From positions 499,251 to 563,250 of the forward strand of contig NZ_CM009578.1 in assembly GCF_002993885.1 (NCBI RefSeq): a stretch of DNA of 64,000 nucleotides. Direction: 5' to 3'. The first letter of the stretch is position 1, and each line of letters starts with the position of its first letter. The stretch is from Sphingopyxis lindanitolerans (GTDB lineage: Bacteria > Pseudomonadota > Alphaproteobacteria > Sphingomonadales > Sphingomonadaceae). This document shows positions 34,921 to 49,318 of this stretch, one piece after another. The notes beneath the pieces are model-generated. The model was not told the DNA's origin. It saw only the letters and a program-made list of their open reading frames with translations, and ran no database searches. Made by a program: the position numbers and the translations under genes.

Positions 34921-36687
34921 TTACCGTGGTTCGAAGAGCGCCTTGAGGTCGCCTTTCAATATCTTGCCATTGGCATTGCGTGGCAGAAGTTCGGGAACGA
35001 ACAGGATCGATACCGGCACCTTGAATGCCGCGATGCGCGCGCGAACCCATTCCTGCAGGTCGGCTTCGGTGGCGGCCGCGCCATCGGCAAGATGAACGAT
35101 TGCGCCAGGGACCTCGCCCAATATACGGTGGGGGATACCGACGAGCGCCGCGTCGATGACCCCAGGGTGCCCGTAGAGGATATTCTCTACCTCGGTCGAA
35201 TAGATATTCTCACCGCCCCGGATGATCATGTCCTTCGCCCGGTCGACGATATAGCAGAAACCCTCGGCATCGATGCGGGCAAGGTCGCCAGTGCGGACCC
35301 ATCCATTCACGAATGTCGCGGCGGTCGCGGCGGGATTTCGCCAATAGCCTTTCACGATCTGCGGACCCGCTGCCCATAGTTCGCCAACTTCGCCGGTGGG
35401 CAGTTCGCGGTCGCCTTCGGGCGACATGATCCGGAGGTCGGCAACCGCGACCGGCGGTCCGCAGCTGTCGGGGCGCTGCGCATAATCCTCGGCGCTGTGC
35501 AGGGTGACCGTGCCCGATGTTTCAGTCATCCCCCAGCCATTACTGGCAAAAGCGTTGAGGTCGCCGCCGATCCGCTGCACCAGCTCCGGTGCGGATGGCG
35601 CACCGCCGTAGGAGACGGCGGCAAGCGACGACAGGTCGAAACGATGCCGCTCGGGATGTTCGATCAGCTGCCAGGCGATGGTCGGGACGCCCCCGGTTGA
35701 AAAGATGCGTTCGCGCTCGATCAGCCGCATCGCTTCCAGCGGATCCCATTTGCGCATCAGGACGAGCCGATTGCCCGCCATTACCGTGTTCATCAGCGTC
35801 GCATGACAGCCCGTTGCATGGAAAAGCGGAATGACGAGCAGATGCGTGCGTGCGTCGGTGGGCGGGGTTCCCTCCCCGCGGCGCAAGGCTGCGCGATGGG
35901 CATTATACGACGCAGTCAGCGAAATGGTCAGGATATTGCGATGCGTTCCAAGCGCGCCCTTCGGCGAGCCGGTGGTGCCGCTCGTATAAAAGATGGTCGC
36001 ATCGTCGTCGGGCTCGACCGCCACAGCGGGAAAATCACCGTCCGGCAGCGCGCCATATGCTGTCGGCTGACCGATCAACGATTCCAGCGCCCGCGCGGGC
36101 GAATGCAACTCCGCGCCATTCGCGCGCGCGACCCAAATTTCGCACAGATCGGGAAGTTCGCCGAGATGCGGCGCGATGACCCGCCAGCGCTCTTCGTCGC
36201 AGATCAGGATTTTGCTGCCCGAGTTCGCAAGCCCGTAGACAAGCTCACCCCCGGTCCACCAGGCATTGAGCGGCACCGCGATCGCGCCGAGCGCTGTAAT
36301 CCCAAAAAAAATGGGTATCCATTCAGGCAGGTTACGCATCGCGATCGCGATCCGATCACCTTTTCCGACCCCTGCTTCCCGCAGGTGCCGCGCCACCGCA
36401 GCGGCAGCACGAAAAAACCCGTCATAGGTGATGTGCTCGCTTTCGAAAACGACGAGTTCGCGCTCGGCGAACTGGTCGCGCGCGCGGCGAGCCAAGGCTC
36501 CAAGGTTCGGGCATTGGTTCGCCCACGTCCGCGTCGGCACCCCGCGAACGGCGACCGTCTCCATTTCGAAGAACGCTCCGTGTGCGCACAGGATCGCTCG
36601 CGCTTCGTCGAGAGTCATGGCCGGCCAGGCGGGGTGCGCGGGTTGCGGGTCGATCACGGCAAAGTCCATCTCGATATTCTCGGTCAT
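34921..36687 (-). CDS. AMP-forming acyl-CoA synthetase
   Basis: 588 residues from ATG 36687 (ATG 36669 is possible). It activates a carboxylic acid to acyl-CoA via an acyl-adenylate. Motifs: P-loop YTSGTTGSPKGALGTH, the GWGMTETSGTVT adenine-binding region, WVRTGDLARID, DRAKDMIIRGGENIYSTEVE, and the catalytic Lys in NANGKILK. The gene begins 1 nt after the MDR reductase stop, so the two are co-transcribed. Substrate is unknown; the size fits medium-chain, aromatic or ring acids. Confidence 0.9.
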   Translation of the reverse strand: MTENIEMDFAVIDPQPAHPAWPAMTLDEARAILCAHGAFFEMETVAVRGVPTRTWANQCPNLGALARRARDQFAERELVVFESEHITYDGFFRAAAAVARHLREAGVGKGDRIAIAMRNLPEWIPIFFGITALGAIAVPLNAWWTGGELVYGLANSGSKILICDEERWRVIAPHLGELPDLCEIWVARANGAELHSPARALESLIGQPTAYGALPDGDFPAVAVEPDDDATIFYTSGTTGSPKGALGTHRNILTISLTASYNAHRAALRRGEGTPPTDARTHLLVIPLFHATGCHATLMNTVMAGNRLVLMRKWDPLEAMRLIERERIFSTGGVPTIAWQLIEHPERHRFDLSSLAAVSYGGAPSAPELVQRIGGDLNAFASNGWGMTETSGTVTLHSAEDYAQRPDSCGPPVAVADLRIMSPEGDRELPTGEVGELWAAGPQIVKGYWRNPAATAATFVNGWVRTGDLARIDAEGFCYIVDRAKDMIIRGGENIYSTEVENILYGHPGVIDAALVGIPHRILGEVPGAIVHLADGAAATEADLQEWVRARIAAFKVPVSILFVPELLPRNANGKILKGDLKALFEPR

Positions 36688-36688
36688 T

Positions 36689-37669
36689 CTAGTCGGCGAC
36701 TCGTACCATGGTCTTGCCGATGCTGTTACCATTGAAGATGCTGATGAGCGCATCCGGAACCTGTTCGATTCCTTGAAAAACCGTCTCGCGCGTCCGGATC
36801 GCACCGCTTCGGATCCAATCACGCATGTCATGGCGGAATGCGTCTTGCAGATGCGGGAACTCATTGACCTGAAAACCCTTGATCACGAGCCGCTTGGCGA
36901 CAAGCTGATGCAGGCCCGTCACCGGCGAACCATTGTCGTTATAGGCCGAAATCATCCCGCAGACAGGAATGCGCCCGTCCGGGTTCATCCGCAGCAAGGC
37001 GGCATCGAGGTGCCGTCCGCCGACATTTTCGAAATAGACGTCGATCCCGTCCGGCGTCGCGGCGGCGACCGCGGCGACAATGTCTTCACGTTTGTAATTG
37101 ATGACGGCATCGAGCCCGAGTTCGCGAAGCCAGTCTGTTTTTGCGTCCGAACCCGTCGATCCCACGACGCGGCAGCCCTTGATCTTCGCAATCTGCGCCG
37201 CCAGAGATCCTACGGCACCAGCGGCAGCGGAAACAAAGACCTGCTCGCCATCGCGCAATCCGGCTATACCGAGCAACCCGCCATAGGCGCACATGCCGAT
37301 CCCGCCGAGGGCGCTGATCTGAACCTCCAGCGGCAGGTCCGGCGCGACGTCGAGCAGGGTGAGAGCGCGGCCATCGCTCACAAAGCGTTCGCGAAAGCCG
37401 GCAAAGTGACGTACCAGCGCGCCTTCGGCGAAATCAGGATGCCGCGAAACCGCCACGCGTCCAACGCCACCGCCACCAAAATTGCGGCCGACATAATCGC
37501 TCTCATGCATCCTGAGGCGCATGAATGGGTCGACCGAGAGAAGGAGAGACTCGACCAACGCTTCCCCGTCCGCTGGCCCGGGGCAATCCACCTCTACCAG
37601 CTCGAAATCCGCCTTGGTCGGCGGCCCGGCGGGAGTTCTGGCCAAGCGAACCTCTTTGGATGAATGCAT
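36689..37669 (-). CDS. NADP-dependent MDR-family oxidoreductase (CurA-like)
   Basis: 326 residues from ATG 37669, GGGGAGAGAT upstream. It is the zinc-free medium-chain reductase branch (alkenal/curcumin reductase type): LSVDPFMRLRM, the cofactor-binding VFVSAAAGAVGSLAAQIAKIKGCRVVGSTGS, and YFENVGGRHLDAALLRMN, GMISAYND. It should reduce a conjugated double bond with NADPH. It starts the two-gene operon with the acyl-CoA synthetase. A paralogue is at 43526-44557. Confidence 0.88.
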   Translation of the reverse strand: MHSSKEVRLARTPAGPPTKADFELVEVDCPGPADGEALVESLLLSVDPFMRLRMHESDYVGRNFGGGGVGRVAVSRHPDFAEGALVRHFAGFRERFVSDGRALTLLDVAPDLPLEVQISALGGIGMCAYGGLLGIAGLRDGEQVFVSAAAGAVGSLAAQIAKIKGCRVVGSTGSDAKTDWLRELGLDAVINYKREDIVAAVAAATPDGIDVYFENVGGRHLDAALLRMNPDGRIPVCGMISAYNDNGSPVTGLHQLVAKRLVIKGFQVNEFPHLQDAFRHDMRDWIRSGAIRTRETVFQGIEQVPDALISIFNGNSIGKTMVRVAD

Positions 37670-37750
37670 ATCTCTCCCCATCTTTGACGGATTGAGTCTG
37701 CAGACGGTCGCGCCGCGCGACAAATCAAATATATTTCGATCGCCTTGAGC

Positions 37751-37945: not shown

Positions 37946-38447
37946 GCTTTCCTCTTCTCGACGATTTTGCGGAGGAGGAAGTCCTCTCATGCAAGAAGTT
38001 TTAGCGCACTCCCCTTTTGAGGCCGGGAATTGCGACCATTGGCTGGCGGCTTGAGGTTGACCGGCGCGCAGCGAGTTCCGATTGTCGGAAATGCGGTGGC
38101 CGAAACTGGCAGCAAGGTGCGATGCGGCATCGGTCCCTCCTTGAACCGCAGGAAAGCCGCATTCCTGCAACCCCCGCTGGTCGGTCGGTTGCATGAAGCC
38201 GTGATCGACCGGGAACCGAGAAGGCGCCGATCCGTTGTTGGCAAGGCGCAGTTGCCGAAAATGACGCGATGCATTCTAGAAACGGAGAAATTTGAGTAAT
38301 TTCCATTAAAAAATAAGAACAGTTTTATCATTACTTATAATATACTATATTTATATTCTAATATATATTTTATAAATTCATATTTTCAACCTTGTTTTGG
38401 GAGATGTGTTTCTTACATATCTTGGGGACACCGTCGGGGGAACGCCA
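37946..38447. other. Non-coding stretch with an extreme AT-rich segment
   Basis: No supported gene. Positions 38288-38390 are almost pure A/T in a window that is otherwise strongly GC-rich; 38341-38390 holds only five C and no G. The rest has ordinary composition. The stretch lies directly upstream of the GT4 fusion gene and probably carries its promoter. Confidence 0.7.
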
Positions 38448-38512: not shown

Positions 38513-40783
38513 ATGTACGAAGTCATCGATCGCGCAGCCTTCGACGAAGCGGACTGGCCGGCAGGCGCGCCCAAAGCCGCCGCGCAATCGGGAACGCGCC
38601 TCGCGCTTGTCGGCGGCTTCCTTCCGCGGCGATGCGGGATCGCAACATTCACGACCGACATCCATGACTCGCTGAAGCGCGCCGCTCCGGACCTTGCTGT
38701 CGATATCTATGCCATGACGCCCGCGACCGATGCGATCGCTTTCGACCCCGAAACCTGTTCGACGATCACCGAAGGCGAGGCCGAAAGCTTTGCCGACGCG
38801 GCGCGTCGGATCGAGGCGAGCGGCGCCGACGTGATTTGGCTTCAGCATGAATTCGGCCTGTTCGGCGGGCTCGCCGGGGACATGATTTTCGAACTCGTCG
38901 ATCGCATCAGCGCCCCGCTTATCGTCACGCTTCACACGGTACTCGCCGACCCCGACGCCGATCAGATGCGGGTGATGCAAAGGCTGATCGCAAGCGCCAG
39001 CAAGCTGGTCGTCATGTCCGAATGCTCGCGTCTCTTGCTGAGGACGCTCTATGCCGCCGATGACGAGCAGATCGTCGTCATCCCGCACGGCGTGCCCGAC
39101 CGCCCGTTCGGGCGAACCCAAATGTTCAAAGCCCCGGCGGGCCTGGTCGGCCGTGATGTCGTCATGACGTTCGGCCTGCTGTCGCCCGGCAAGGGCATCG
39201 AGGCCGCGATCGCGGCGCTGCCTGCGGTGATCGCCGATTGTCCCGACATCCTCTATTGCATCGTCGGCGCGACGCATCCCAACCTGCTGGCACGCGAAGG
39301 CGAGGCCTATCGCGAACGGCTGCAGGACCAGGCGAAGGCGTTGGGGGTCGAAGCCCATATCAAATGGATCGATGCCTTTCTGGAAACCGATGCCTTGCTC
39401 GACCTGATCGAGGCCGCCGACATCTATGTCACCCCCTATACCGGCGCGGGCCAGTCGACGTCGGGAACGCTTGCCTATGCCATGGCGCTTGGAAAGGCCG
39501 TCGTGTCGACGCCCTATGTTCATGCGACCGAACTGCTGGCCGACGGGCACGGCATCCTCGTACCCTTTGGCGACAGCCCGGCGATCGCGAGGGAAATCGT
39601 GGCGCTGCTGAGCGACCGCGAGCGGCTCGGCGCGATGCAAAGGCGCGCGTACCAGCGCGGGCGGCAAATGATCTGGTCGGCGCTTGCCGCGCGGCTCGTC
39701 GCGCTGATCGACGCGACCAAGGTGAACCCATGGGCTTCGCCGATTCCCGCGCGTGTCGGAATCGATGGCTTGCTCCGCATTTGCGACGACACCGGCATCC
39801 TCCAGCACAGCGTCCACGACATTCCCGACCGGGCGCACGGCTATTGCGTCGACGACAATGCGCGCGCGCTGATGCTGACGCACCGGCTGGGCAAGGAGGC
39901 CGAGCCGCATCGCAGCCGGCTGACCAGCATTTTCGCCGCCTTCGTCGAGGCGTCTTGGAACGAGGATAGCGGGCAGTTTCGAAACTTCATGGATTATCGC
40001 CGGAACTGGCTGGAAGACAGCGGATCCGAGGATAGTTGCGGACGAACGCTCTGGGCCCTTGGCGCCACCGCGCGCGAAGGCCGGAGCGCGAGCACCCGCT
40101 TATGGGCCGGGCGGCTGTTCATCCGCGCCGCGCCCTCGATGTCCGCTTTCCGTTCGCCGCGCGCGATCGCCTTCGCGATGCTGGGCGCCGACTATCTCCT
40201 CGCCGTCGATGAAGAAAATGCCCCCGCAATGACAATGTTGCAGCAGGGCACCGATCGGCTTCTCGCGCTTTACGAACAGGCGTCGACGCCCGACTGGCAC
40301 TGGTTCGAGCCCGTGCTGGCCTATGACAATGGCCGCATCCCCGAAGCGCTCATTCGCGCCGGCATCAGGCTGCGCCGCGCCGACGCGACCCAGTGCGGCC
40401 TCGACACGCTCCGCTGGCTCAACACCGCCCAGATCGCGCCTGCGGGTCATTTCCGGCCGGTGGGTTCGGACAGCTTTGGCCGGCATCACGAATTGCCCCG
40501 CCCCTTCGACCAGCAACCGGTCGAGGCCTGGGCGGCGATCGACGCCGCCTCGGCGGCCTATGACCTCACGGGCGACGCGATCTGGCTTACGCACGCCCAG
40601 CGGGCCTATCGCTGGTTTTCGGGAGCCAACGACCGCGGACTTGCTGTTGGCGATCCGCACTCGGGTACGTGCCGCGACGGCATCAACCGGCGCGGCCTGA
40701 ACCTTAACGAGGGCGCCGAATCGGTCCTGGCCTATCAGCACGCAAGCTGCGCCCTTCGCGCCTTGACGGCCAAAATCCATTAG
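38513..40783 (+). CDS. GT4 glycosyltransferase fused to a C-terminal alpha/alpha-barrel-like domain
   Basis: 756 residues from ATG 38513. Residues about 30-400 are a GT4 glycosyltransferase: LALVGGFLPRRCGIATFTTD, WLQHEFGLFGG, VIPHGVPDRPFGR, FGLLSPGKGIEAAI, and YTGAGQSTSGTLAYAMALGKAVVSTPY. Residues about 410-756 form a second helical domain starting near GLLRICDDTGILQHSVHD with HGYCVDDNARALML, then repeated helix pairs and HHELPRPFDQQPVEAWAAIDAA, reminiscent of (alpha/alpha)6 epimerase or hydrolase barrels. GH130 follows after 34 nt. The pairing suggests synthesis of a mannose-containing oligosaccharide; sugar and linkage are inferred only from the neighbours. Confidence 0.8.
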   Translation: MYEVIDRAAFDEADWPAGAPKAAAQSGTRLALVGGFLPRRCGIATFTTDIHDSLKRAAPDLAVDIYAMTPATDAIAFDPETCSTITEGEAESFADAARRIEASGADVIWLQHEFGLFGGLAGDMIFELVDRISAPLIVTLHTVLADPDADQMRVMQRLIASASKLVVMSECSRLLLRTLYAADDEQIVVIPHGVPDRPFGRTQMFKAPAGLVGRDVVMTFGLLSPGKGIEAAIAALPAVIADCPDILYCIVGATHPNLLAREGEAYRERLQDQAKALGVEAHIKWIDAFLETDALLDLIEAADIYVTPYTGAGQSTSGTLAYAMALGKAVVSTPYVHATELLADGHGILVPFGDSPAIAREIVALLSDRERLGAMQRRAYQRGRQMIWSALAARLVALIDATKVNPWASPIPARVGIDGLLRICDDTGILQHSVHDIPDRAHGYCVDDNARALMLTHRLGKEAEPHRSRLTSIFAAFVEASWNEDSGQFRNFMDYRRNWLEDSGSEDSCGRTLWALGATAREGRSASTRLWAGRLFIRAAPSMSAFRSPRAIAFAMLGADYLLAVDEENAPAMTMLQQGTDRLLALYEQASTPDWHWFEPVLAYDNGRIPEALIRAGIRLRRADATQCGLDTLRWLNTAQIAPAGHFRPVGSDSFGRHHELPRPFDQQPVEAWAAIDAASAAYDLTGDAIWLTHAQRAYRWFSGANDRGLAVGDPHSGTCRDGINRRGLNLNEGAESVLAYQHASCALRALTAKIH

Positions 40784-40817
40784 GCGCCCCCGCCCCATCG
40801 ATCTCGTCCAGCACGAC

Positions 40818-42086
40818 ATGCGGCTCCACGCGGACCCGACCCGGGTCGTGGTGCGACCGTTTCATCTGGCCTGGCAGGCATCGGGCCCCGATCTGGCCCG
40901 GGTGCAGCGGCTCGCGCATGATGTCATCGGTCTCGACATGCGGACCGTGCGAAGCGAACTGGGTTCGGTCCTGCGCGATTTCGCCGATCGGCACTGGCAA
41001 ATCGAAAAAGTGTTCGAAGAGCGCTTCGTCGAAATCGAGCCCAGGCTCGGCCTCGACGGATCGGTCTTGAAGCGCGAAATGCGGCTCCTGATCGGGGCCT
41101 ATTTCTGTCACGAATACAGCTATGCCGCGGCGGCGCTGATGAACCCGAGCGTGGTACGGCACCCCGATCAGACAGGGTTGCAGGAGGGCAGCGTTCGCAT
41201 TCTCCTTTCGCTACGCGCGGTCGGCGAAGGGCATATTTCGACGATCGCCTTTCGCGAAGGGATCGTGTCGCCGGGGCGAGAATTGACGCTGATGCCCCAG
41301 CCGACCTTTGCGACCGCGGCCATGCTGGGCACGCATCAGGCGGACAATCAGGAAGATCGCATCTCGGTTCACCGCGATCCCGACAGCAGTATTTCGGGCA
41401 CCGTCATCTTCCCGATCACCGAGGCGCAGCGCAACGGGCTCGAGGACCTGCGCCTCGTCGAGTTCGAACGCGATAGCGGCAAAAGCGAATGGATCGGCAC
41501 CTACACCGCCTACAGCGGCCGCGATATTCGCTCGGAACTGCTTCGCACGCGCGATTTCCGCGATTTCACGCTGACCCCGATCAAGGGCGGCGCCGGCCGC
41601 AACAAGGGCATGGCGCTGTTTCCGCGCAAGATTGACGGAAAATTCTGCATGATTGGTCGGCAGGACGGCAAGAATCTCTACCTGCTGCGGTCGGATTCGA
41701 TCGATCATTGGGAGGGCGGCGAGCTGCTGCTCGAACCCCGTTTCCCCTGGGAATTCGTCCAGATCGGCAATTGCGGCGCCCCGATCGAGCTGGACGAAGG
41801 CTGGCTGGTGCTGACGCATGGTGTCGGGGCGATGCGAAAATATGCGATCGGCGCGGTCTTGCTCGACAAGGAGGATCCGTCAAAACTGCTCGGCCGAACC
41901 CCGAACCCGCTTCTGTCCGCCGCGGACGAAGATCGCGAAGGCTATGTGCCCAACGTCGTCTATACCTGCGGCGCCATCCGCGTCGGCGACGATCTCTTCC
42001 TCCCTTATGGAGTCGCTGACAGTTCGGTGTGTTTTGTTTTCATGCCGATTGCAGACATATTGGCGGCCATGGAAACGCAGGCCTGA
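40818..42086 (+). CDS. GH130 family glycoside phosphorylase-like protein
   Basis: 422 residues. An N-terminal helical extension (about 1-115) precedes a five-bladed propeller typical of GH130: NPSVVRHPDQTG, GGAGRNKGMALFPRKIDGKF, DGKNLYLLRS, WEFVQIGNCGAPIELDEGWLVLTHGVGAMRKYAIGAVLLD and VPNVVYTCGAI. Characterised GH130 enzymes phosphorolyse beta-mannosides (beta-1,2- or beta-1,4-linked), giving mannose 1-phosphate. The start ATG 40818 is chosen by default; the frame is open some codons upstream. Operon partner of the GT4 fusion. Confidence 0.85.
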   Translation: MRLHADPTRVVVRPFHLAWQASGPDLARVQRLAHDVIGLDMRTVRSELGSVLRDFADRHWQIEKVFEERFVEIEPRLGLDGSVLKREMRLLIGAYFCHEYSYAAAALMNPSVVRHPDQTGLQEGSVRILLSLRAVGEGHISTIAFREGIVSPGRELTLMPQPTFATAAMLGTHQADNQEDRISVHRDPDSSISGTVIFPITEAQRNGLEDLRLVEFERDSGKSEWIGTYTAYSGRDIRSELLRTRDFRDFTLTPIKGGAGRNKGMALFPRKIDGKFCMIGRQDGKNLYLLRSDSIDHWEGGELLLEPRFPWEFVQIGNCGAPIELDEGWLVLTHGVGAMRKYAIGAVLLDKEDPSKLLGRTPNPLLSAADEDREGYVPNVVYTCGAIRVGDDLFLPYGVADSSVCFVFMPIADILAAMETQA

Positions 42087-42241
42087 CGCGCCTCAACGAT
42101 TACGCCCGCTCATTTGCCAGGGAAAACCGGGTAGTTTGACCATCTCCCCCCGGCATATCGTGCAATGGCTGACGAACCGTCCCCTATCCCAGTGGCTGGC
42201 TTTGAAGTCGACCCGATGCCGCCCGAAAAGATTGTGCAGAA

Positions 42242-43069
42242 TCATGCCTCCGCTCCCAGCACCAGCTGTGCGCGGTCGTTCGCCGCCGACGCATGACGGG
42301 TTGCCGACCCCGTGGCGGGCGCCCATTTCAGGCAGGCGATGATCATTTCGATGACGGCGCGGGTCTCGCCCGGATCGCGAACGCACACGGTATCCAGGCC
42401 CAGGGTCTTGGCGGGATAGTCATTGCCACCGGGGAAAATCGCATCGCCGACGAAGAGCATGGCATCGAGCGCGATGCCGCTGGCATCGCGCAATTTCGTC
42501 AGGCCATATGCCTTGTCGACCCCTTCGCGGGTAACGTCGATCGACGTCGCGCCGCCCATGTTGATCGAAAGCCCAGGCAGGCGCTCACGAAGATCGCGCT
42601 GAATGACCTTGCGCTTCGCAAAGTCGGGATCCCATTTTTCCTTGGCATGAATCGGGGCCTCCTGGCCCAGCGCCGAAAAGGTGATCTGGCTCCCGCGGTC
42701 CTCGATGCGCTCGCCCCACACCGTCTCGGGAACAAAGCCGGTGGCTCGGAGTGACGCATCGAATGCCTCGAATATGCGCTGCTTTTCCTTGTCCGCGAAC
42801 AGTTCGGCATAAACCGGCCGCCATGCGCCGGAACCATGCCTATAGAGTTTGGTGCCCGTCGTCGGCATGAGCCACAGGCGTGCGCTGTTCGCCCGGGCGG
42901 GAAGCCGCGACGCGACCTGCTTTTCGAACTGGGGCCAATCGCCGCCCGAGATTACCGCGACCTCGACCACATTCAGAAGATCGGCGAGCGCGTCTCCCAT
43001 CGCGGCGTCGAGCGGCTGTTTGCTCTCGGCAAGCGTCCCATCGAGGTCGAAGGCAATGAGCTGTTTCAC
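42242..43069 (-). CDS. HAD-IIB hydrolase, phosphomannomutase (PMM)-like
   Basis: 275 residues from GTG 43067-43069, which overlaps the stop of the small upstream gene (GTGA). HAD motif I is FDLDGTLAESK, motif II VISGGDWPQF, and the end has LFVGDAIFPGGNDYPAKTLG, close to the GD-x4-PGGND signature of eukaryotic-type phosphomannomutase. TSIDVTREGVDKAYGL resembles the PMM cap/lysine region. It would interconvert mannose 6-phosphate and mannose 1-phosphate, or act as a sugar phosphatase. It faces the GT4-GH130 operon tail to tail, 155 nt away. Confidence 0.8.
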   Translation of the reverse strand: MKQLIAFDLDGTLAESKQPLDAAMGDALADLLNVVEVAVISGGDWPQFEKQVASRLPARANSARLWLMPTTGTKLYRHGSGAWRPVYAELFADKEKQRIFEAFDASLRATGFVPETVWGERIEDRGSQITFSALGQEAPIHAKEKWDPDFAKRKVIQRDLRERLPGLSINMGGATSIDVTREGVDKAYGLTKLRDASGIALDAMLFVGDAIFPGGNDYPAKTLGLDTVCVRDPGETRAVIEMIIACLKWAPATGSATRHASAANDRAQLVLGAEA

Positions 43070-43332
43070 GCCGGAGTCTCTCGGCGTTGCACCCCAAGCC
43101 CATCGCCGACGAAGGAAGCCGACCGTGCATCGACCTGATCGCTTGCCCGCTTGCCCCATTGCGCGACCACCGGAACATCGAAGGTCAGGCCGCGGCGCTC
43201 GCGATATTCGTTGATGCGCCTGGCATAATAGCAGGGAAGATCGAAATTGACGCCCGTCCGCCCATCGCGCTGCGCCTGGCCGACGGCCATCAAGGCCCTT
43301 TGATGATGATAGAGAAGTTCGTTGAGGTCCAT
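43066..43332 (-). CDS. Small hypothetical protein coupled to the PMM-like gene
   Basis: 88 residues from ATG 43332, with AAGGAG upstream. It starts MDLNELLYHHQRALMAVGQAQ and continues with RTGVNFDLPCYYARRINEYRERRGL, a mix of amphipathic helix and basic residues; the tail is polar. No known domain recognised, although short proteins beginning in this way are frequent in sphingomonads. Its stop overlaps the GTG of the PMM-like gene, so the products are likely co-expressed. Confidence 0.65.
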   Translation of the reverse strand: MDLNELLYHHQRALMAVGQAQRDGRTGVNFDLPCYYARRINEYRERRGLTFDVPVVAQWGKRASDQVDARSASFVGDGLGVQRRETPA

Positions 43333-43525: not shown

Positions 43526-44557
43526 TTACTCCGTCCCGTCGATCCGCAGCAATTGCTTGCCCTGATTCGAACCGCTGAACAGGCGCAGAAATGTTTGCGG
43601 GACGGCGCCGAAGCCGTGCTGGATGTCGGTACGATAGTGGATTTGGCCGCCACGAACCCATTGCCTGAGGTCGGCCATGGCGGCGGGCACACGATCGAGA
43701 TGGTCGAGCAGAATGAAGCCGCACATCTCGGCCCGCTGCGAAATCATCCGCATCAGGTTGCGCGGACCGACAGCGCCCCGCACGTCGTTATAGCCCGAAA
43801 TGGCACCGCACAGGACGATCCGGCCGAAGCGCGCGATATGCGCGATCCCTCCCTCGAGTATCGTGCCGCCGACATTGTCGAAGAACAGGTCGATCCCATC
43901 GGGTGCAAGCGCCCCAAGCCGCGCCCGGACATCCTCGCAGCGATAGTCGATCGCGGCGTCGGCGCCATAATCCTCGACCAGCCAGCGGCATTTCTCGGCG
44001 CCTCCGGCGATCCCGAGCACGCGCGCGCCCGCAAGCCGCGCGATCTGGATAGCGACCGATCCGACCGCACCCGCCGCGCCCGAGACGAGCACGCAATCCC
44101 CCGCGCGAAGCCGACCGACATCAAACATGCCGACATAGGCGGTAAGGCTTGCGGCGCCGAATATACCCAATGCCTCTTCGGGCGCTATATCTTCGGGAAT
44201 GGACACCAGGTCGGGGTCGCCCGCTCGCGCCGCGACGGCATAATCCTGCCACCCGAACAACCCCCGCACCATCGAACCTTCGGGATAGGCCGGGTTCGCC
44301 GACGCGATCACACGCGCGGCCGCGCTGCCGCGCACGACCTCATCGATCATGATCGGGGGCAGATAGCTCGGGGCATCATCCATCCATCCGCGCTGCGCGG
44401 GGTCGAAGCCGAACATGAGGTTACGGACGAGGATTTCGCCCGCGGCCAGATCGGCACGCGGCATCGGCGCGTCATGCCGTGCAAAATCCTCCACGCTGAC
44501 CTGCCCGTTGGGACGCCGCGCGAGCAGCCATTGGCGATTGACGGTCTCTGCGGGCAT
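43526..44557 (-). CDS. NADP-dependent MDR-family oxidoreductase
   Basis: 343 residues. Zinc-free medium-chain reductase, same branch as the gene at 36689-37669: VRNLMFGFDPAQRGWMDD, VLVSGAAGAVGSVAIQIARLAGARVLGIAGG, FFDNVGGTILEGGIAHIARFGRIVLCGAISGYND. Likely reduces an alpha,beta-unsaturated carbonyl with NADPH. It stands between the mannose locus and the HIP-type cluster on the minus strand, with an SDR gene upstream on the same strand; linkage to either is unproven. Confidence 0.87.
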   Translation of the reverse strand: MPAETVNRQWLLARRPNGQVSVEDFARHDAPMPRADLAAGEILVRNLMFGFDPAQRGWMDDAPSYLPPIMIDEVVRGSAAARVIASANPAYPEGSMVRGLFGWQDYAVAARAGDPDLVSIPEDIAPEEALGIFGAASLTAYVGMFDVGRLRAGDCVLVSGAAGAVGSVAIQIARLAGARVLGIAGGAEKCRWLVEDYGADAAIDYRCEDVRARLGALAPDGIDLFFDNVGGTILEGGIAHIARFGRIVLCGAISGYNDVRGAVGPRNLMRMISQRAEMCGFILLDHLDRVPAAMADLRQWVRGGQIHYRTDIQHGFGAVPQTFLRLFSGSNQGKQLLRIDGTE

Positions 44558-44705: not shown

Positions 44706-45476
44706 TCAGCCCGCCTGGGCAAGGCTCAGAAAGACAGGCCGCTCACCGCCGCCGTGCGCGGCGATCCTGGCCCCGCTGATATAGGCCGCATCGGGCGACG
44801 CCAGGAAACTGACGACGCCGGCGATATCGGACCCGTGCGCCATGCGCCCGAGCGGCAGCATCGCGTCGATGCGCTTCATACCTTCGGCGCCGCCATAATG
44901 ATCGGCCGCCGCCTCGGTGGCGACCAGCCCGACGACGATCGCGTTGACGCGCACCTTCGGCCCCCATTCCATGGCGAGCGATTCGGTGAGGCTCAACAAT
45001 CCGGCCTTGGCCGCGCCATAGACCGCGGTGCCCGGCGAAGGCCGCGCGCCCGAAACGCTGGCGATATTGACGATGCTGCCGCCGCTTTCCTGCGCCTGCA
45101 TGATGCGGTTTGCCGCCTGTGCGACATGGAGCGGCGCGAGCAGGTTGAGCGCGAGGATGCGCTCCGAAAAGCGCGGCGAAGCCGAAGCCGCTTCGGCTTC
45201 GGGCGATCCCCCCGCGTTGTTCACCACCAGATCGAGCCGACCGTGGCGTTCGAAAATCCGGGCGACCATCGCCTGAACCGCGTCCGCCGAACGCACGTCG
45301 CACGCCTCGAACTCCGCCACCGCATCATCGTGGCGCGGCAAGTCGCCGGGGGCATTGCGGCCGCAGATCACGACCCGCATCCCGTCGCTCAGCAAGCGCT
45401 CCGCGATCGCGCGGCCGATGCCGCGGCTGCCGCCGGTCACAAGCGCCACGCGCTGTTGGTCGTCCACCATAGCCAT
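44706..45476 (-). CDS. Short-chain dehydrogenase/reductase
   Basis: 256 residues; ATG 45476 or ATG 45470 (the latter has GGAGA at better spacing). Classical SDR: RVALVTGGSRGIGRAIAE, NNAGG, catalytic Ser in NIASVSG and Tyr/Lys in YGAAK, and an SGARIAAHGGG end. Divergent from the IpdA-like gene across about 145 nt, so both may share regulation. A role in the adjacent steroid-type pathway is possible but the subfamily is not diagnostic. Confidence 0.85.
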   Translation of the reverse strand: MAMVDDQQRVALVTGGSRGIGRAIAERLLSDGMRVVICGRNAPGDLPRHDDAVAEFEACDVRSADAVQAMVARIFERHGRLDLVVNNAGGSPEAEAASASPRFSERILALNLLAPLHVAQAANRIMQAQESGGSIVNIASVSGARPSPGTAVYGAAKAGLLSLTESLAMEWGPKVRVNAIVVGLVATEAAADHYGGAEGMKRIDAMLPLGRMAHGSDIAGVVSFLASPDAAYISGARIAAHGGGERPVFLSLAQAG

Positions 45477-45621
45477 TCTCCATCTTCCATCCGCCTCTTT
45501 CCGGCCGGACGGCGCGAAAGTCTCTCTCCATATGGTGGTATCGCCCGAACGGCCAGCGCGCCTATCCCTCTTGCAACATCGCGGGCGCCCTCGCGCCCGG
45601 CGCCTGTGGCTGGAGAGTGGA

Positions 45622-46497
45622 TTGAACAAGCAACTGACCGTCGAGCAGTTCGTCGCCTCGCTGAAGAGCGGGATGACGATCGGGATTGGAGGCTGGGGCC
45701 CACGCCGCAAGCCGATGGCACTGGTCCGCGCCATTTTGCGTTCGGACCTCACCGACCTGACGATCGTCGCCTATGGCGGCCCCGAAGTCGGCATGCTCTG
45801 CGCCGCGGGCAAGGTGAAGAAGCTGATCTTCGGCTTCGTCTCGATGGATGCGATCCCGCTCGAACCTTATTTTCGCAAGGCGCGCGAGGCCGGAACCCTC
45901 GACATTCTCGAGCTTGACGAAGGCATGCTGCAATGGGGGCTCAAGGCTGCGGCGTTCCGCCTGCCTTTCCTCCCCACCCATGTCGGTCTCGGCACCGATG
46001 TCATGACGCATGGCGGCTTCCGGACCGTCCAGTCACCCTATGACGATGGCGAGGTCGTGCTGGCGATGCCGCCGCTGCGGCTCGACGCCGCGCTGCTCCA
46101 CGTTCACCGCGCCGACAAGCTCGGCAATATCCAGGCGCTCGGCCCCGACACCTATTATGACGAATGGTTCGCGCGCGCCGCCGACCAAAGCTTCGTTTCG
46201 GCCGAAGAAGTCGTCGATCGCATGGACCATAGCTATCCCGAGGATGCGCGCGCCAACATCGTCGAGCGTTGCTTCATCCACGGCGTGGTCGAAGCGCCGC
46301 TGGGCGCGCACCCGACCTCGATGCCGCCGTCCTACGGCTGGGACATGAAGCACCTCAAGGCCTATGCCGCGAGCGCGCGCCAGGAGGGCGGCTGGGACGC
46401 CTATGTGGCGGGCGTCATCGGCGCCGACGAAGCCGGCTACCTCGACCGTGTCGGCGGCAAGGATACTGTCGCCGCCCTCCCCCTTCCCATCTTCTGA
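45622..46497 (+). CDS. ipdA: IpdA-like CoA-transferase-fold hydrolase, alpha subunit
   Basis: 291 residues starting at TTG 45622, which has GGAG six bases upstream; no ATG lies at the conserved start. With the next gene it forms a class I CoA-transferase-like heterodimer. Motifs: FVASLKSGMTIGIGGWGPRRKPMALVRAIL, VAYGGPEVGMLCAAGKVKKLIFGF, and HRADKLGNIQALG. In the HIP pathway IpdAB hydrolyses COCHEA-CoA to open the last steroid ring. It opens a 13-gene run. Other CoA-transferase functions are possible, but the neighbouring IpdC-, IpdF- and FadA6-like genes support this one. Confidence 0.8.
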   Translation: MNKQLTVEQFVASLKSGMTIGIGGWGPRRKPMALVRAILRSDLTDLTIVAYGGPEVGMLCAAGKVKKLIFGFVSMDAIPLEPYFRKAREAGTLDILELDEGMLQWGLKAAAFRLPFLPTHVGLGTDVMTHGGFRTVQSPYDDGEVVLAMPPLRLDAALLHVHRADKLGNIQALGPDTYYDEWFARAADQSFVSAEEVVDRMDHSYPEDARANIVERCFIHGVVEAPLGAHPTSMPPSYGWDMKHLKAYAASARQEGGWDAYVAGVIGADEAGYLDRVGGKDTVAALPLPIF

Positions 46498-46511
46498 GGC
46501 GGACGAAGCTC

Positions 46512-47312
46512 ATGACCACCGCACCCGAATTTTCGCTCTGCGAACAGTTGATCGTCGCCGCCTCCGAAGCGTGGCGCGGCAATGGCGAACTCGTCGCGAC
46601 CGGCATCGGCCCGGCGCCTCGCCTCGCCGCCTCGCTCGCCAAGGTGACGCACACCCCCGAACTGATGATGACCGACGGCGAGGCGTATCTGGTCGAGGAC
46701 CCGGTGCCGCTCGGCCCGCGCGGCTATGACGACCGCAAGCCCGCGGGCTACCTGCCCTTCTCGCGTTTCTTCGACGCCGCGGTGTGGCCCGGCAAGCGCC
46801 ACGCAATGGTCACGCCGAGCCAGATCGACCGTTTCGGCCAGACGAACATCTCCTATCTCGGCGGCACCTACGACCAACCAAAGGTGCAGATGCTCGGCGC
46901 GCGCGGCTTTCCGGGCAACAGCATCTGCCACATCAACTCGATGTTCGTTCCCGCCCACTCGAAGCGCGTCTTCGTCGAGGGCGAGGTCGATATGGTGTCG
47001 AGCGTCGGTTATAATCCCGCGCGGCGCATCGCGGGCGCGACTTTCGACCGGGTCGACCTGCGGCTGATCGTCACCGATCTTTGCGTGATGGATTTCGGCG
47101 GCACGGACCATGCGATCCGCGTCGTGATGCTCCACCCTGGCGTCACTTTCGATCAGGTGCAGGAAGCGACCGGCTTCGCGCTCCAGGCCGCGGCCGAGAT
47201 CGAGGAAACGGCCGCCCCTACCGCCGAGCAGCTCGCGATCATCGCGCGGCTCGACCCGCATAATCTGCGCGCGACCGTGCTCAAGGACAATCCCGCGGGC
47301 AAGAGGACCTGA
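46512..47312 (+). CDS. ipdB: IpdB-like CoA-transferase-fold hydrolase, beta subunit
   Basis: 266 residues from ATG 46512, 14 nt after ipdA. Beta-subunit features: LCEQLIVAASEAWRGNGELVATGIGPAPRLAASLAK, MMTDGEAYLVEDPVPLG, and SQIDRFGQTNISYLG. The sequence lacks the usual SENG-type active Glu motif of true CoA-transferases at its expected place, in keeping with the hydrolase IpdB (motif judged by eye). Cytosolic partner of ipdA. Confidence 0.8.
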   Translation: MTTAPEFSLCEQLIVAASEAWRGNGELVATGIGPAPRLAASLAKVTHTPELMMTDGEAYLVEDPVPLGPRGYDDRKPAGYLPFSRFFDAAVWPGKRHAMVTPSQIDRFGQTNISYLGGTYDQPKVQMLGARGFPGNSICHINSMFVPAHSKRVFVEGEVDMVSSVGYNPARRIAGATFDRVDLRLIVTDLCVMDFGGTDHAIRVVMLHPGVTFDQVQEATGFALQAAAEIEETAAPTAEQLAIIARLDPHNLRATVLKDNPAGKRT

Positions 47313-47315
47313 GCC

Positions 47316-48239
47316 ATGACAGAGCAGAATGACGGGCTCGTCCCGCCGGTCGATGAAACCCCGGTCTATGAAACCGATACGCCGATCCTCTATGAAGCGG
47401 CGGACGGCATTGCGTGGGTGACGCTCAACCGCCCGCAATATCACAATGTCCAGAACAGCCAGATGACCTATGCGCTCGACGACGCCTTCGTCCGCGCGGT
47501 CAATGACGATGCGGTCAAGGTCATCGTCCTGAAATCGGACGCCAAACATTTCAGCGCCGGGCACGACATCGGCACACCGGGACGCGACTTCCACTCGCCC
47601 GTCGAGCGCCGGCTGATGTGGTACGATCACTCGACCAAGGCGGGCGCCGAAAAAGCCTATGCCCGCGAACAGGAACAATATCTGGGCATGTGCAAAAGGT
47701 GGCGGGACATTCCCAAGCCGACCATCGCGCAGGTCCACGGCGGCTGCATCGCGGGCGGGCTGATGCTGGCCTGGGTGTGCGACCTCATCATCGCCTCGGA
47801 CGATGCCTTCTTTCAGGACCCGGTGCTCCAGATGGGGTTTCCGGGCCTCGAATATTTCGCGCATTGCCACGAACTCAATGTCCGGCTGGCCAAGGAGTTT
47901 CTGTTCCTCGGCGACCGGATGAGCGCCGAGCGCGCGCGCGAAGCCGGGATGGTCAACCGCGTCGTGCCGCGCGCCGAATTGGCGGACGAGGTCGCACGCA
48001 TCGCGGCGCGGATCGCGACGCAGCCCCGCCTCGCGCTGCAACTCGCGAAGCAGGCGTGCAACCATATGGAGACGCTGGCGGGCAAGAATGCCGGGATCGA
48101 CGCGGCGTTCGGCTATCATCATTTCGCCCACGCCAACAACAGCCTGGTCAAGGGCGACTATATCGCCGGGTTCGACGGCAAGAAGATGGCCGAAGCCAAC
48201 AAGAAAGACGTCGCCAAGAAGGATCAGGGGGAAGGCTGA
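47316..48239 (+). CDS. Enoyl-CoA hydratase/isomerase family protein
   Basis: 307 residues, longer than a standard crotonase owing to an N-terminal tail and a Lys-rich end. Crotonase motifs: WVTLNRPQYHNVQN, HFSAGHDIG oxyanion region, IAQVHGGCIAGGLMLAWVCDLIIAS, and GFPGLEYFAHCHEL. In HIP degradation an enoyl-CoA hydratase of this kind hydrates the ring-C/D intermediates. Its stop overlaps the next ATG by 1 nt. The exact step is not decided by sequence alone. Confidence 0.85.
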   Translation: MTEQNDGLVPPVDETPVYETDTPILYEAADGIAWVTLNRPQYHNVQNSQMTYALDDAFVRAVNDDAVKVIVLKSDAKHFSAGHDIGTPGRDFHSPVERRLMWYDHSTKAGAEKAYAREQEQYLGMCKRWRDIPKPTIAQVHGGCIAGGLMLAWVCDLIIASDDAFFQDPVLQMGFPGLEYFAHCHELNVRLAKEFLFLGDRMSAERAREAGMVNRVVPRAELADEVARIAARIATQPRLALQLAKQACNHMETLAGKNAGIDAAFGYHHFAHANNSLVKGDYIAGFDGKKMAEANKKDVAKKDQGEG

Positions 48240-49318
48240 TGGCCGATCCGCTCGCCACCCTTCTGACCGAACGGCTCGGCTGCCGACTGCCGGTGATCCA
48301 GACCGCGATGGGCTGGATCGCGACGCCGGGCCTGGTGATCGCGTCGAGCGAGGCGGGCGCTTTCGGTTTCCTCGCGGGCGCGGTGATGCAGCCCGCCGAG
48401 CTTGAGGCGGCGATCCTTGCGGTGAAGAAGGGCACGAAGCAGCCCTTCGGCGTCAATTTCCATATGTTCCAGCCGGGCGCGGCGGAGATTGTCGAGATCA
48501 TCCTGAAACACCGCGACCAGATCCGCGCGGTCAGCTTTGGGCGCGGGCCCGATGCGACAATGATCGGCCGTTTCAAGGATGCGGGCATCCTCTGCGTGCC
48601 CACCGTCGGCGCGGTCAAGCATGCGCAGAAGATGGTGCAGCTTGGCGTCGACATGGTGACGGTGCAGGGCGGCGAAGGCGGCGGGCATACCGGGTCGGTC
48701 GCCTCGACCATATTGCTGCCGCAGGTGCTCGATGCGGTGAAGGTGCCCGTGATCGCCGCGGGCGGCTTTGACGACGGGCGCGGGCTCGCGGCGGCGCTGG
48801 CCTATGGCGCGGTCGGGATCGCGATGGGTACCCGCTTCCTGATGACGCGCGAAAGCCCGATCCCCGACGTGACCAAGGCGCGCTATGTCGGCGCGGGCAC
48901 CGACGACATTCTGGTATCGACCAAGGTCGACGGCCTGCCGCAGCGGATGATCCGCAATGCGCTGCTCGATCGCATCGAGCGGTCGAGCGGCCTCGGCATT
49001 TGGCGCCGCGCGATCGAAAGCGGGCTCGCGATGAAGCGCCAGACCGGCGCGTCGTTCGGCGAATTGTTCCGCGCCGCGAAGGGCATGACCAGCCACGGCG
49101 GGCTGACGCTGCCACAGGCGATGATGGCGGCGTCGGCGCCGATGCTGATCCAGAAAGCGGTGGTCGAGGGCGATCCCGACCATGGCCTGATGGCGACCGG
49201 CCTCGTCGCCGGACGGCTTGCCGACCTGCCGAGTTGCGCCGAACTGCTCGGCGGCATCGAACGCGACGCGCGCGCGCGCCTCGCTGCGCTTTCCTTTCCT
49301 GCATCAACGGGGGTCTGA
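48239..49318 (+). CDS. IpdC-like FMN enzyme (nitronate monooxygenase family)
   Basis: 359 residues from ATG 48239. TIM-barrel FMN enzyme: LPVIQTAMGWIATPGLVIASSEAGAFGFLA, VQGGEGGGHTGSVAST, VIAAGGFDDGRGLAAALAYGAVGIAMGTRF. The family includes IpdC, a flavoprotein needed for the HIP ring-C steps in actinobacteria; the position between a hydratase and a second crotonase in an ipdAB operon supports this. Distinct from the larger family member at 7372-8775. Confidence 0.8.
   Translation: MADPLATLLTERLGCRLPVIQTAMGWIATPGLVIASSEAGAFGFLAGAVMQPAELEAAILAVKKGTKQPFGVNFHMFQPGAAEIVEIILKHRDQIRAVSFGRGPDATMIGRFKDAGILCVPTVGAVKHAQKMVQLGVDMVTVQGGEGGGHTGSVASTILLPQVLDAVKVPVIAAGGFDDGRGLAAALAYGAVGIAMGTRFLMTRESPIPDVTKARYVGAGTDDILVSTKVDGLPQRMIRNALLDRIERSSGLGIWRRAIESGLAMKRQTGASFGELFRAAKGMTSHGGLTLPQAMMAASAPMLIQKAVVEGDPDHGLMATGLVAGRLADLPSCAELLGGIERDARARLAALSFPASTGV

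Follow-up and report, generated by a model that had tools for sequence, protein, structure and literature searches.

A conserved GT4-like fusion and GH130-family gene pair in Sphingopyxis lindanitolerans as a candidate core of a stress-associated mannose pathway

The 64,000-nucleotide stretch of the Sphingopyxis lindanitolerans genome analyzed here (contig NZ_CM009578.1, positions 499,251 to 563,250; hereafter the window, with its own numbering used throughout) contains a locus in which a GT4-like glycosyltransferase with a fused C-terminal barrel domain is encoded in tandem with a GH130-family protein. The fusion gene (38513..40783, plus strand) is present as an open reading frame of 756 aa and is followed after 34 bp by the GH130 gene (40818..42086, plus strand, 422 aa). 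Convergent with this pair lies a gene for a HAD-IIB sugar-phosphomutase-like protein (42242..43069, minus strand, 275 aa, GTG start), which a small coupled gene (43066..43332, minus strand, 88 aa) overlaps by 4 bp. An original prediction, made from the letters alone, had described this same arrangement, and all four open reading frames were confirmed, as were its GT4 and GH130 family calls, with Pfam models scoring above their cut-offs. In the fusion, PF13692 matched residues 215–368 with 68.9 bits (cut-off 27) and PF00534 matched residues 213–382 with 65.0 bits (cut-off 26.4), within a GT-B part spanning residues 27–400 (38591–39712, plus strand); the label GT4-like thus stands for a Pfam match above cut-off together with a GT-B fold, and denotes similarity alone. 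The C-terminal barrel domain comprises residues 413–756 (39749–40780, plus strand), and no Pfam family matched these final ≈350 residues. In the GH130 protein, PF04041 matched residues 196–419 with 99.1 bits (cut-off 26); a helical N-terminal part (residues 24–95; 40887–41102, plus strand) precedes a predicted beta-propeller with the fold of the GH130 family (residues 106–417; 41133–42068, plus strand). No signal peptide was apparent by eye at the N-terminus of either protein.

The conservation of the pair was assessed among relatives. A homologue search with the GH130 protein as query gave at least 8000 proteins, and the 80 named loci referred to below are the best 80 of 354 collected with that query, complemented by a class sample of 240 genomes (GH130 threshold E ≤ 1e-20) and a phylum sample of 349 genomes. 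Because the loci were picked by similarity to the pair and some places were fetched twice (L034 and L183 are one place), they form a biased, partly redundant and non-independent sample. The fusion gene, whole or cut, was located just upstream of the GH130 gene and on the same strand in 77 of the 80 named loci, the exceptions being L040 and L101, which show no fusion gene in the sequence that was available, and L049, which is interrupted by a contig end. In the class sample, GH130 was found in eight genomes and the barrel domain in seven, all of them among those eight and with the two genes adjacent, in reversed order in two cases (G175 and G261; Fisher p 9.6e-13 for the co-occurrence, a value that ignores kinship). 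The eighth genome, without the barrel, was G066, whose assembly is split into 810 contigs and 7% contaminated. The neighbourhood survey that had been proposed as a check of the original prediction was hence favourable with regard to these two genes. Barrel domains were found in 18 of the 349 genomes of the phylum sample, four of them outside the class; among the corresponding loci GH130 was present in L166 and L167, with none seen in L169 or in L168, where the contig starts inside the fusion gene. A search with the fusion from one of these four genomes, identical to a Mariprofundaceae protein, had Zetaproteobacteria, Deltaproteobacteria, Nitrospinota and Planctomycetota among the matches listed, the last three by the fusion alone. 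The fusion and the GH130 protein form a conserved unit that is old, and we found no description of this pair in the open-licence PMC literature.

The GH130 protein carries the residues expected for mannose. N109, E209, D210, K263, R281, H334 and D401 were invariant in all 46 aligned rows of the family, with N109, D210 and D401 being the equivalents of Asn28, Asp92 and Asp281 of Teth514_1788 (the N109 match rests on our own alignment), which are mannose-binding and catalytic residues of that enzyme (PMC4264767, available in part). A Glu beside the catalytic Asp and a conserved Lys (Lys199 of BT3780) have been tied to beta-1,2 linkages (PMC4599007), and both features were found here as E209 and K263 in 46 of 46 rows, where K263 was equated with Lys199 by way of the NK lysine of solved beta-1,2 enzymes. 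The proposed check for phosphorylase residues gave a divided answer, since the presumed basic phosphate site, as placed by spacing, retains R281 and H334 (and K263) but has Gln at position 315 in each of the 46 rows. Which three basic residues bind phosphate is our assumption, taken partly from the numbering of Uhgb_MP. In the hydrolase BT3780, a beta-1,2-mannosidase, Glu227 and Glu268 replace basic residues (PMC4599007). We saw no such Glu pair in the window protein, because R281 and Q315 occupy the positions that appear to correspond, although no residue-by-residue alignment with BT3780 itself was made. With R281 and H334 kept, Gln at position 315 and no Glu pair seen, the clade resembles neither a typical phosphorylase nor a typical hydrolase. 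Sixteen of 116 loci have a second GH130 gene, of which there are three subtypes, and the copy in L187 retains the Arg. Close fold matches of the window protein included Uhgb_MS, a named mannoside synthase. An assignment of the GH130 protein to GT108 was also considered and was neither supported nor excluded, as the GT108 structure 6Q50 was not among the 50 fold matches listed, in which the Leishmania hypothetical protein 2b4w ranked 42nd.

A role in mannose metabolism is further suggested by genes for mannose activation near the pair. Type I phosphomannose isomerase (PMI)-like genes were located beside it in 6 of 116 loci, three from other families (L170, L196 and L197) and three from the window's family (L173, L194 and L039); these copies scored 48–70 bits with TIGR00218, under the cut-off of 116, and the L196 copy matched the solved PMI 1qwr with E 9e-20. 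Three of 36 loci carry cupin-type PMI genes of type II: the one in L198 shares 4 bp with the fusion gene, the one in L167 is fused to a further GT4, and the one in L180 lies ≈5 kb from the fusion. What speaks most strongly for mannose is that PMI genes of two families accompany the pair in different lineages. Genes for mannose-1-phosphate guanylyltransferase (GMP) were found beside the fusion in 4 of 116 loci (L177, L178, L187 and L194), the three that were scanned giving 340–349 bits with TIGR01479, just under its cut-off of 373. In L194 the genes form a row of GH130, PMI, fusion, GMP and second GH130, and the island L187 (1–11788) combines genes for catalase, an FAD oxidoreductase, the HAD protein, a second GH130, GMP, the fusion and GH130 in less than 12 kb. 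The window's own genome has one GMP gene (C1:472647-473699), ≈64 kb upstream of the pair, and two phosphoglucomutase/phosphomannomutase genes elsewhere on the chromosome. Together with the invariant mannose residues of the GH130 protein, the PMI genes beside the pair and the GMP genes beside the fusion strengthened the mannose theme of the original prediction.

The pair also appears to be linked to the general stress response. We scored an EcfG-type promoter motif as GGAAC or GCAAC, a spacer of 16–17 nucleotides, and CGTT, TGTT, GGTT or CATT, within −200 to +80 of the fusion start, using variants reported for Sphingopyxis granuli TFA (PMC7083833, available in part). The motif was found in 49 of 72 named loci, compared to a mean of 0.9 and a maximum of 3 of 72 for random windows (200 draws) and to 50 of 741 starts of other open reading frames in the same loci. 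Some loci have catalase and hemerythrin proteins (by Pfam) and a Dps-like protein (named from reading its sequence) as neighbours. Upstream of the catalase genes the motif was seen in none of the five loci with a window-type pair and in all three larger islands; in four of those five it is not required, because the catalase gene comes after GH130 in the same orientation. Taken together, the motifs upstream of the fusion make a good case for a stress link of the pair in Sphingomonadales as a group. The window itself has a perfect EcfG consensus (GGAAC-N16-CGTT; 38212..38236, plus strand) ≈280 bp before the start of the fusion gene, and no further GGAAC-N15..18-CGTT occurs in the window, whichever strand is read. 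Between this site and the gene lies an AT-rich leader (38300..38415, 116 bp, 18% GC vs 60% just upstream), which is AT-rich also in L055 and L182. Directly after it comes a conserved CCTTGTTTTG...ACAT stretch, which could be the actual promoter in the window's clade. In Sphingomonas melonis Fr1 the genes #1750 ('Glycosyltransferase') and #1751 ('Glycosidases') are EcfG-dependent (PMC6599016, available in part) and were considered as possible counterparts of the pair. None of 250 genomes of the genus of G071, which was taken as Sphingomonas and in which S. melonis may not be included, had the #1751 motif, and we did not use the two genes as evidence. 'Glycosidases' is presumably the COG name for alpha-amylase-type enzymes. 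The main text of a Rhizobium etli EcfG paper, as far as it was available, held no glycosyl-, glycosidase or mannose terms (PMC3892343).

The HAD protein matched both PF03332, the model for phosphomannomutase (PMM), with 42.3 bits (cut-off 22.4) and TIGR01484 (HAD-IIB) with 78.0 bits (cut-off 41.8). Its closest solved relative was the alpha-phosphoglucomutase 4bnd, which we take to be from Lactococcus lactis, with E 1.9e-44 over residues 1–246, vs E 2.5e-13 for PMM2. The Arg of the SPIGR motif is a substrate residue of PMM2; the window protein reads SALGQ and alpha-phosphoglucomutase SAIGQ, so that this Arg is replaced by Gln, and an identity as PMM was rejected for this protein, which the original prediction had called PMM-like. 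It does keep a PMM-like SIDV stretch where 4bnd has TING. Among 60 genomes, 17 have the gene, counting that of the window, and every one of the 17 carries the GH130 protein (17 of 26 genomes with GH130 vs 0 of 34 without, p 8e-9, uncorrected; within the genus, 17 of 25 vs 0 of 11, p 1.5e-4). Sixteen of 23 HAD copies lie at most 16.2 kb from a GH130 gene (nine within 2.6 kb, seven at 5.7–16.2 kb), two others being placed beside a fusion and a GMP gene and five on contigs without a GH130 match. Two arrangements occur, with the HAD gene upstream and codirectional in L031, L032, L034–L037, L046, L181, L183 and L184, or downstream and convergent in the window, L182 (G016) and L055. The small coupled gene matched no Pfam or NCBIfam family; with its 88 aa compared to the ≈203 aa of relatives (203 aa in L181, 4605–5216, and in L031), the window copy looks shortened.

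Our best reading of these genes, to which we assign a probability of about one half, is that they would belong to a GDP-mannose-dependent manno-glycoside pathway with beta-1,2-mannosyl turnover that is used under stress, with the fusion and the GH130 protein as the core of a cytosolic mannose pathway in the stress response. In such a pathway, PMI, a mutase and GMP would convert fructose 6-phosphate to mannose 6-phosphate, mannose 1-phosphate and finally GDP-mannose, from which the fusion would move mannose onto an acceptor, most likely via an alpha bond as judged from GT4 chemistry. The GH130 protein would add or remove beta-1,2-linked mannose on the product of the fusion, presumably with alpha-mannose 1-phosphate as the donor or product, and the barrel domain would probably hold or trim that glycan. 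In Sphingopyxis the HAD mutase would interconvert hexose 1- and 6-phosphates, and the released sugar phosphate could re-enter metabolism. The cell would thereby accumulate a manno-oligosaccharide or manno-glycoside in its interior, as a compatible solute or small reserve under general stress.

Several observations weigh against this pathway. The donor motif of GT4 enzymes, EX7E, was not found in the fusion, which reads QX7Y/F, with Gln at position 314 in 39 of 40 rows and with Tyr (21), Phe (18) or Gln (1) at position 322 (the fusion was also aligned with PimA), and GDP-mannose as the donor can therefore not be read from the sequence. GT4 enzymes are also retaining, and the fusion, if it used GDP-mannose, would be expected to form an alpha-mannoside, a mismatch to a beta-mannoside product. 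As an alpha-mannoside would remain uncut by GH130, a simple cycle that builds and breaks the same bond does not close; either the two enzymes would act on different bonds of one product, or the GH130 protein would run as a synthase. Position 315, Gln in the family, is occupied by Arg or Lys in the five best-aligned solved relatives (Lin0857, Teth514_1788, the beta-1,2-mannobiose phosphorylase 7fip, TM1225 and Uhgb_MS). PMI and GMP genes were seen in a minority of non-independent loci. Only three genomes, all of the window's genus, account for the four GMP loci, and in two of these loci, L177 and L178, the fusion lacks an adjacent GH130 gene. The EcfG-type site of the window is not conserved in L055 or L182, the two closest relatives compared, so the stress link is good for Sphingomonadales as a group and tentative for the window copy, and in the eight pair loci of other families of the class (L170, L171 and L196–L201) the motif was seen only in L200, at +7. 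The cycle of beta-mannoside synthesis and breakdown that had originally been proposed consequently survives in part: the conserved pair, the mannose genes and the GH130 residues speak for it, and the retaining GT4, Gln315 and a HAD protein nearest to alpha-phosphoglucomutase speak against it.

The last of these observations concern the HAD gene, which is present in 10 of the 80 named loci and, in the class sample, in 4 of 240 genomes, where it coincides with the pair only in the window's own among the eight GH130-positive genomes; HAD operons have the EcfG-type motif in 2 of 14 loci, both from Novosphingobium (L045 and L047). The HAD gene is a Sphingopyxis-centred add-on and no constant part of the pair, and the expected co-occurrence of three genes was borne out for HAD and GH130 among relatives but not across the named loci. 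A tentative alternative with a sizeable minority chance is that the HAD protein is an alpha-phosphoglucomutase encoded by an unrelated neighbour and uninformative with regard to mannose, as its much closer match to the L. lactis enzyme than to PMM2, the Gln that both have at the 'GR' position of PMM and its absence from 70 of the 80 named loci would suggest, whereas its presence in 17 of 26 genomes with GH130 vs 0 of 34 without, its two arrangements next to the pair, its two further copies beside fusion and GMP genes and its retained SIDV stretch argue against this alternative.

The stereochemical mismatch would be resolved if the GH130 protein were a beta-mannan synthase, with the fusion making an alpha-mannosyl or other primer from which GH130 extends a beta-1,2-mannan using mannose 1-phosphate, like the Leishmania GT108 enzymes with mannogen. 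We regard this as unlikely. GH130 reactions are reversible (PMC4264767, available in part), Uhgb_MS as a close fold match is a named synthase, and PMI with a mutase could provide mannose 1-phosphate without GMP; the GMP genes beside the fusion in three genomes, however, suggest use of GDP-mannose. High cytosolic phosphate moreover favours phosphorolysis, and we know of no such polymer. Less probable still is that the pair makes and edits a stress-induced surface or envelope glycan, such as a mannose-containing exopolysaccharide or glycolipid. That PimA, a mannosyltransferase with lipid acceptor, was the best phmmer match of the GT part and that the EcfG response also adjusts envelope modulation (PMC6599016) would fit this, but no flippase or polymerase was found among the neighbours annotated or read (representatives only, with many neighbours unannotated), and an MFS transporter (c21) was found in 3 of 36 loci, by Pfam for one of them. 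We consider it improbable that GH130 serves salvage by phosphorolysing imported beta-1,2-manno-oligosaccharides for GDP-mannose synthesis, as proposed for Thermoanaerobacter, where strain X-514 has a GT4 and a GMP gene next to two GH130 phosphorylases (PMC4264767, available in part). In its favour, 28 of the 80 named loci, from Sphingomonas, have an OPT-like transporter gene (named from its sequence) close to the pair. The ABC transporter genes and GH5 of the Thermoanaerobacter cluster, however, were not seen among the partially annotated neighbours, and the tight pairing with a fused GT, as well as the stress-type promoters, suggests an internal product.

A bolder form of the preferred stress-related mannose pathway would be a bacterial counterpart of mannogen under the general stress response, in which a beta-1,2-manno-oligosaccharide, kept as stress solute and carbon reserve, is primed by a bifunctional GT4-barrel fusion and reversibly lengthened by the GH130 protein with its altered phosphate site. 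Besides Sphingomonadales, it could be found in other alphaproteobacteria and Zetaproteobacteria, there lacking the same promoter, and perhaps in Nitrospinota and Planctomycetota, where the fusion alone was seen; we hold this extended form to be doubtful.

As for the genomic surroundings, a 23-residue remnant of a catalase N-terminus was found at 38057–38125 on the minus strand (74% identity, E 2e-5). Sphingopyxis solisilvae (L055) has a full-length catalase and an FAD oxidoreductase upstream of the pair and on the same strand as the remnant, so that the catalase was probably lost in the window. Genes for an acyl-CoA ligase, a CoA-transferase and an enoyl-CoA hydratase and a FabK-like gene surround the locus (34921–36864 and 45355–49318) and look like steroid or acyl-CoA catabolism, the ligase scoring 412 bits with the steroid-24-oyl-CoA synthetase model, under its cut-off of 750; names of the IpdABC type would presumably apply to these genes. 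Two CurA-like NADPH reductases flank the locus (36689–37723 and 43526–44557, minus strand), with 295 and 299 bits (cut-off 440). By gene calls, without protein-by-protein comparison, the neighbours in L055 and L182 differ from these acyl-CoA surroundings. In Sphingomonas loci, a QueF gene precedes the pair (30 of the 80 named loci, by Pfam for L062), and sulfurtransferase-like, MetC-like, MscS-like and OPT-like genes, named from reading their sequences, recur.

To our knowledge, mannose-based solutes and reserves have been described from few organisms. If true, the proposed pathway would represent a new stress sugar in environmental bacteria, tied to mannose activation and to the alphaproteobacterial stress promoter, and would give a role to a GH130 clade with an unusual phosphate site as well as a function to a barrel domain that has no name and one relative of which has been solved but not explained. 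That relative, the exported protein YPO2471 (7TEM, function not stated), is a 427-residue chain without a GT part. The GT part of the fusion resembles PimA- and MshA-type GT4 enzymes in GT-B fold and sequence, whereas those enzymes have EX7E where the fusion reads QX7Y/F, and the fusion carries the additional barrel. The HAD protein is similar to the L. lactis alpha-phosphoglucomutase over residues 1–246 but keeps the SIDV of PMMs. Compared to the GH130 beta-1,2-mannoside phosphorylases (Teth514_1788/1789 and Lin0857), the window protein has ≈80 more, mostly helical, N-terminal residues than Teth514_1788 (Asn109 vs Asn28), Gln315 instead of Lys or Arg at the presumed phosphate site, and a near-constant pairing of its family with the GT4 fusion. 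The Leishmania enzymes of family GT108, to which the original prediction had pointed, do share fold, inverting mechanism and mannose 1-phosphate chemistry with GH130 and act on a reserve polymer (PMC8950772, available in part). GT108 is a separate family, and mannogen is a demonstrated polymer whereas the window system is known from genes alone. Leishmania PMM is also of the HAD type (the window HAD protein matched 2i54, which we take to be this enzyme), and we know of no GT4 fusion in the mannogen system. The nearest described cluster found in open-licence PMC literature is Teth514_1786–1789 of Thermoanaerobacter X-514, where, similarly, GH130 genes lie beside a GT4 gene annotated for GDP-mannose and a GMP gene; it differs in having ABC transporters and a GH5 enzyme, has no stress promoter mentioned in the available part of the paper, and was read by its authors as serving GDP-mannose salvage (PMC4264767). 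What distinguishes the present pair from that cluster is the fusion, a longer N-terminus, Gln315, its neighbours of the PMI and HAD types and its stress promoter.

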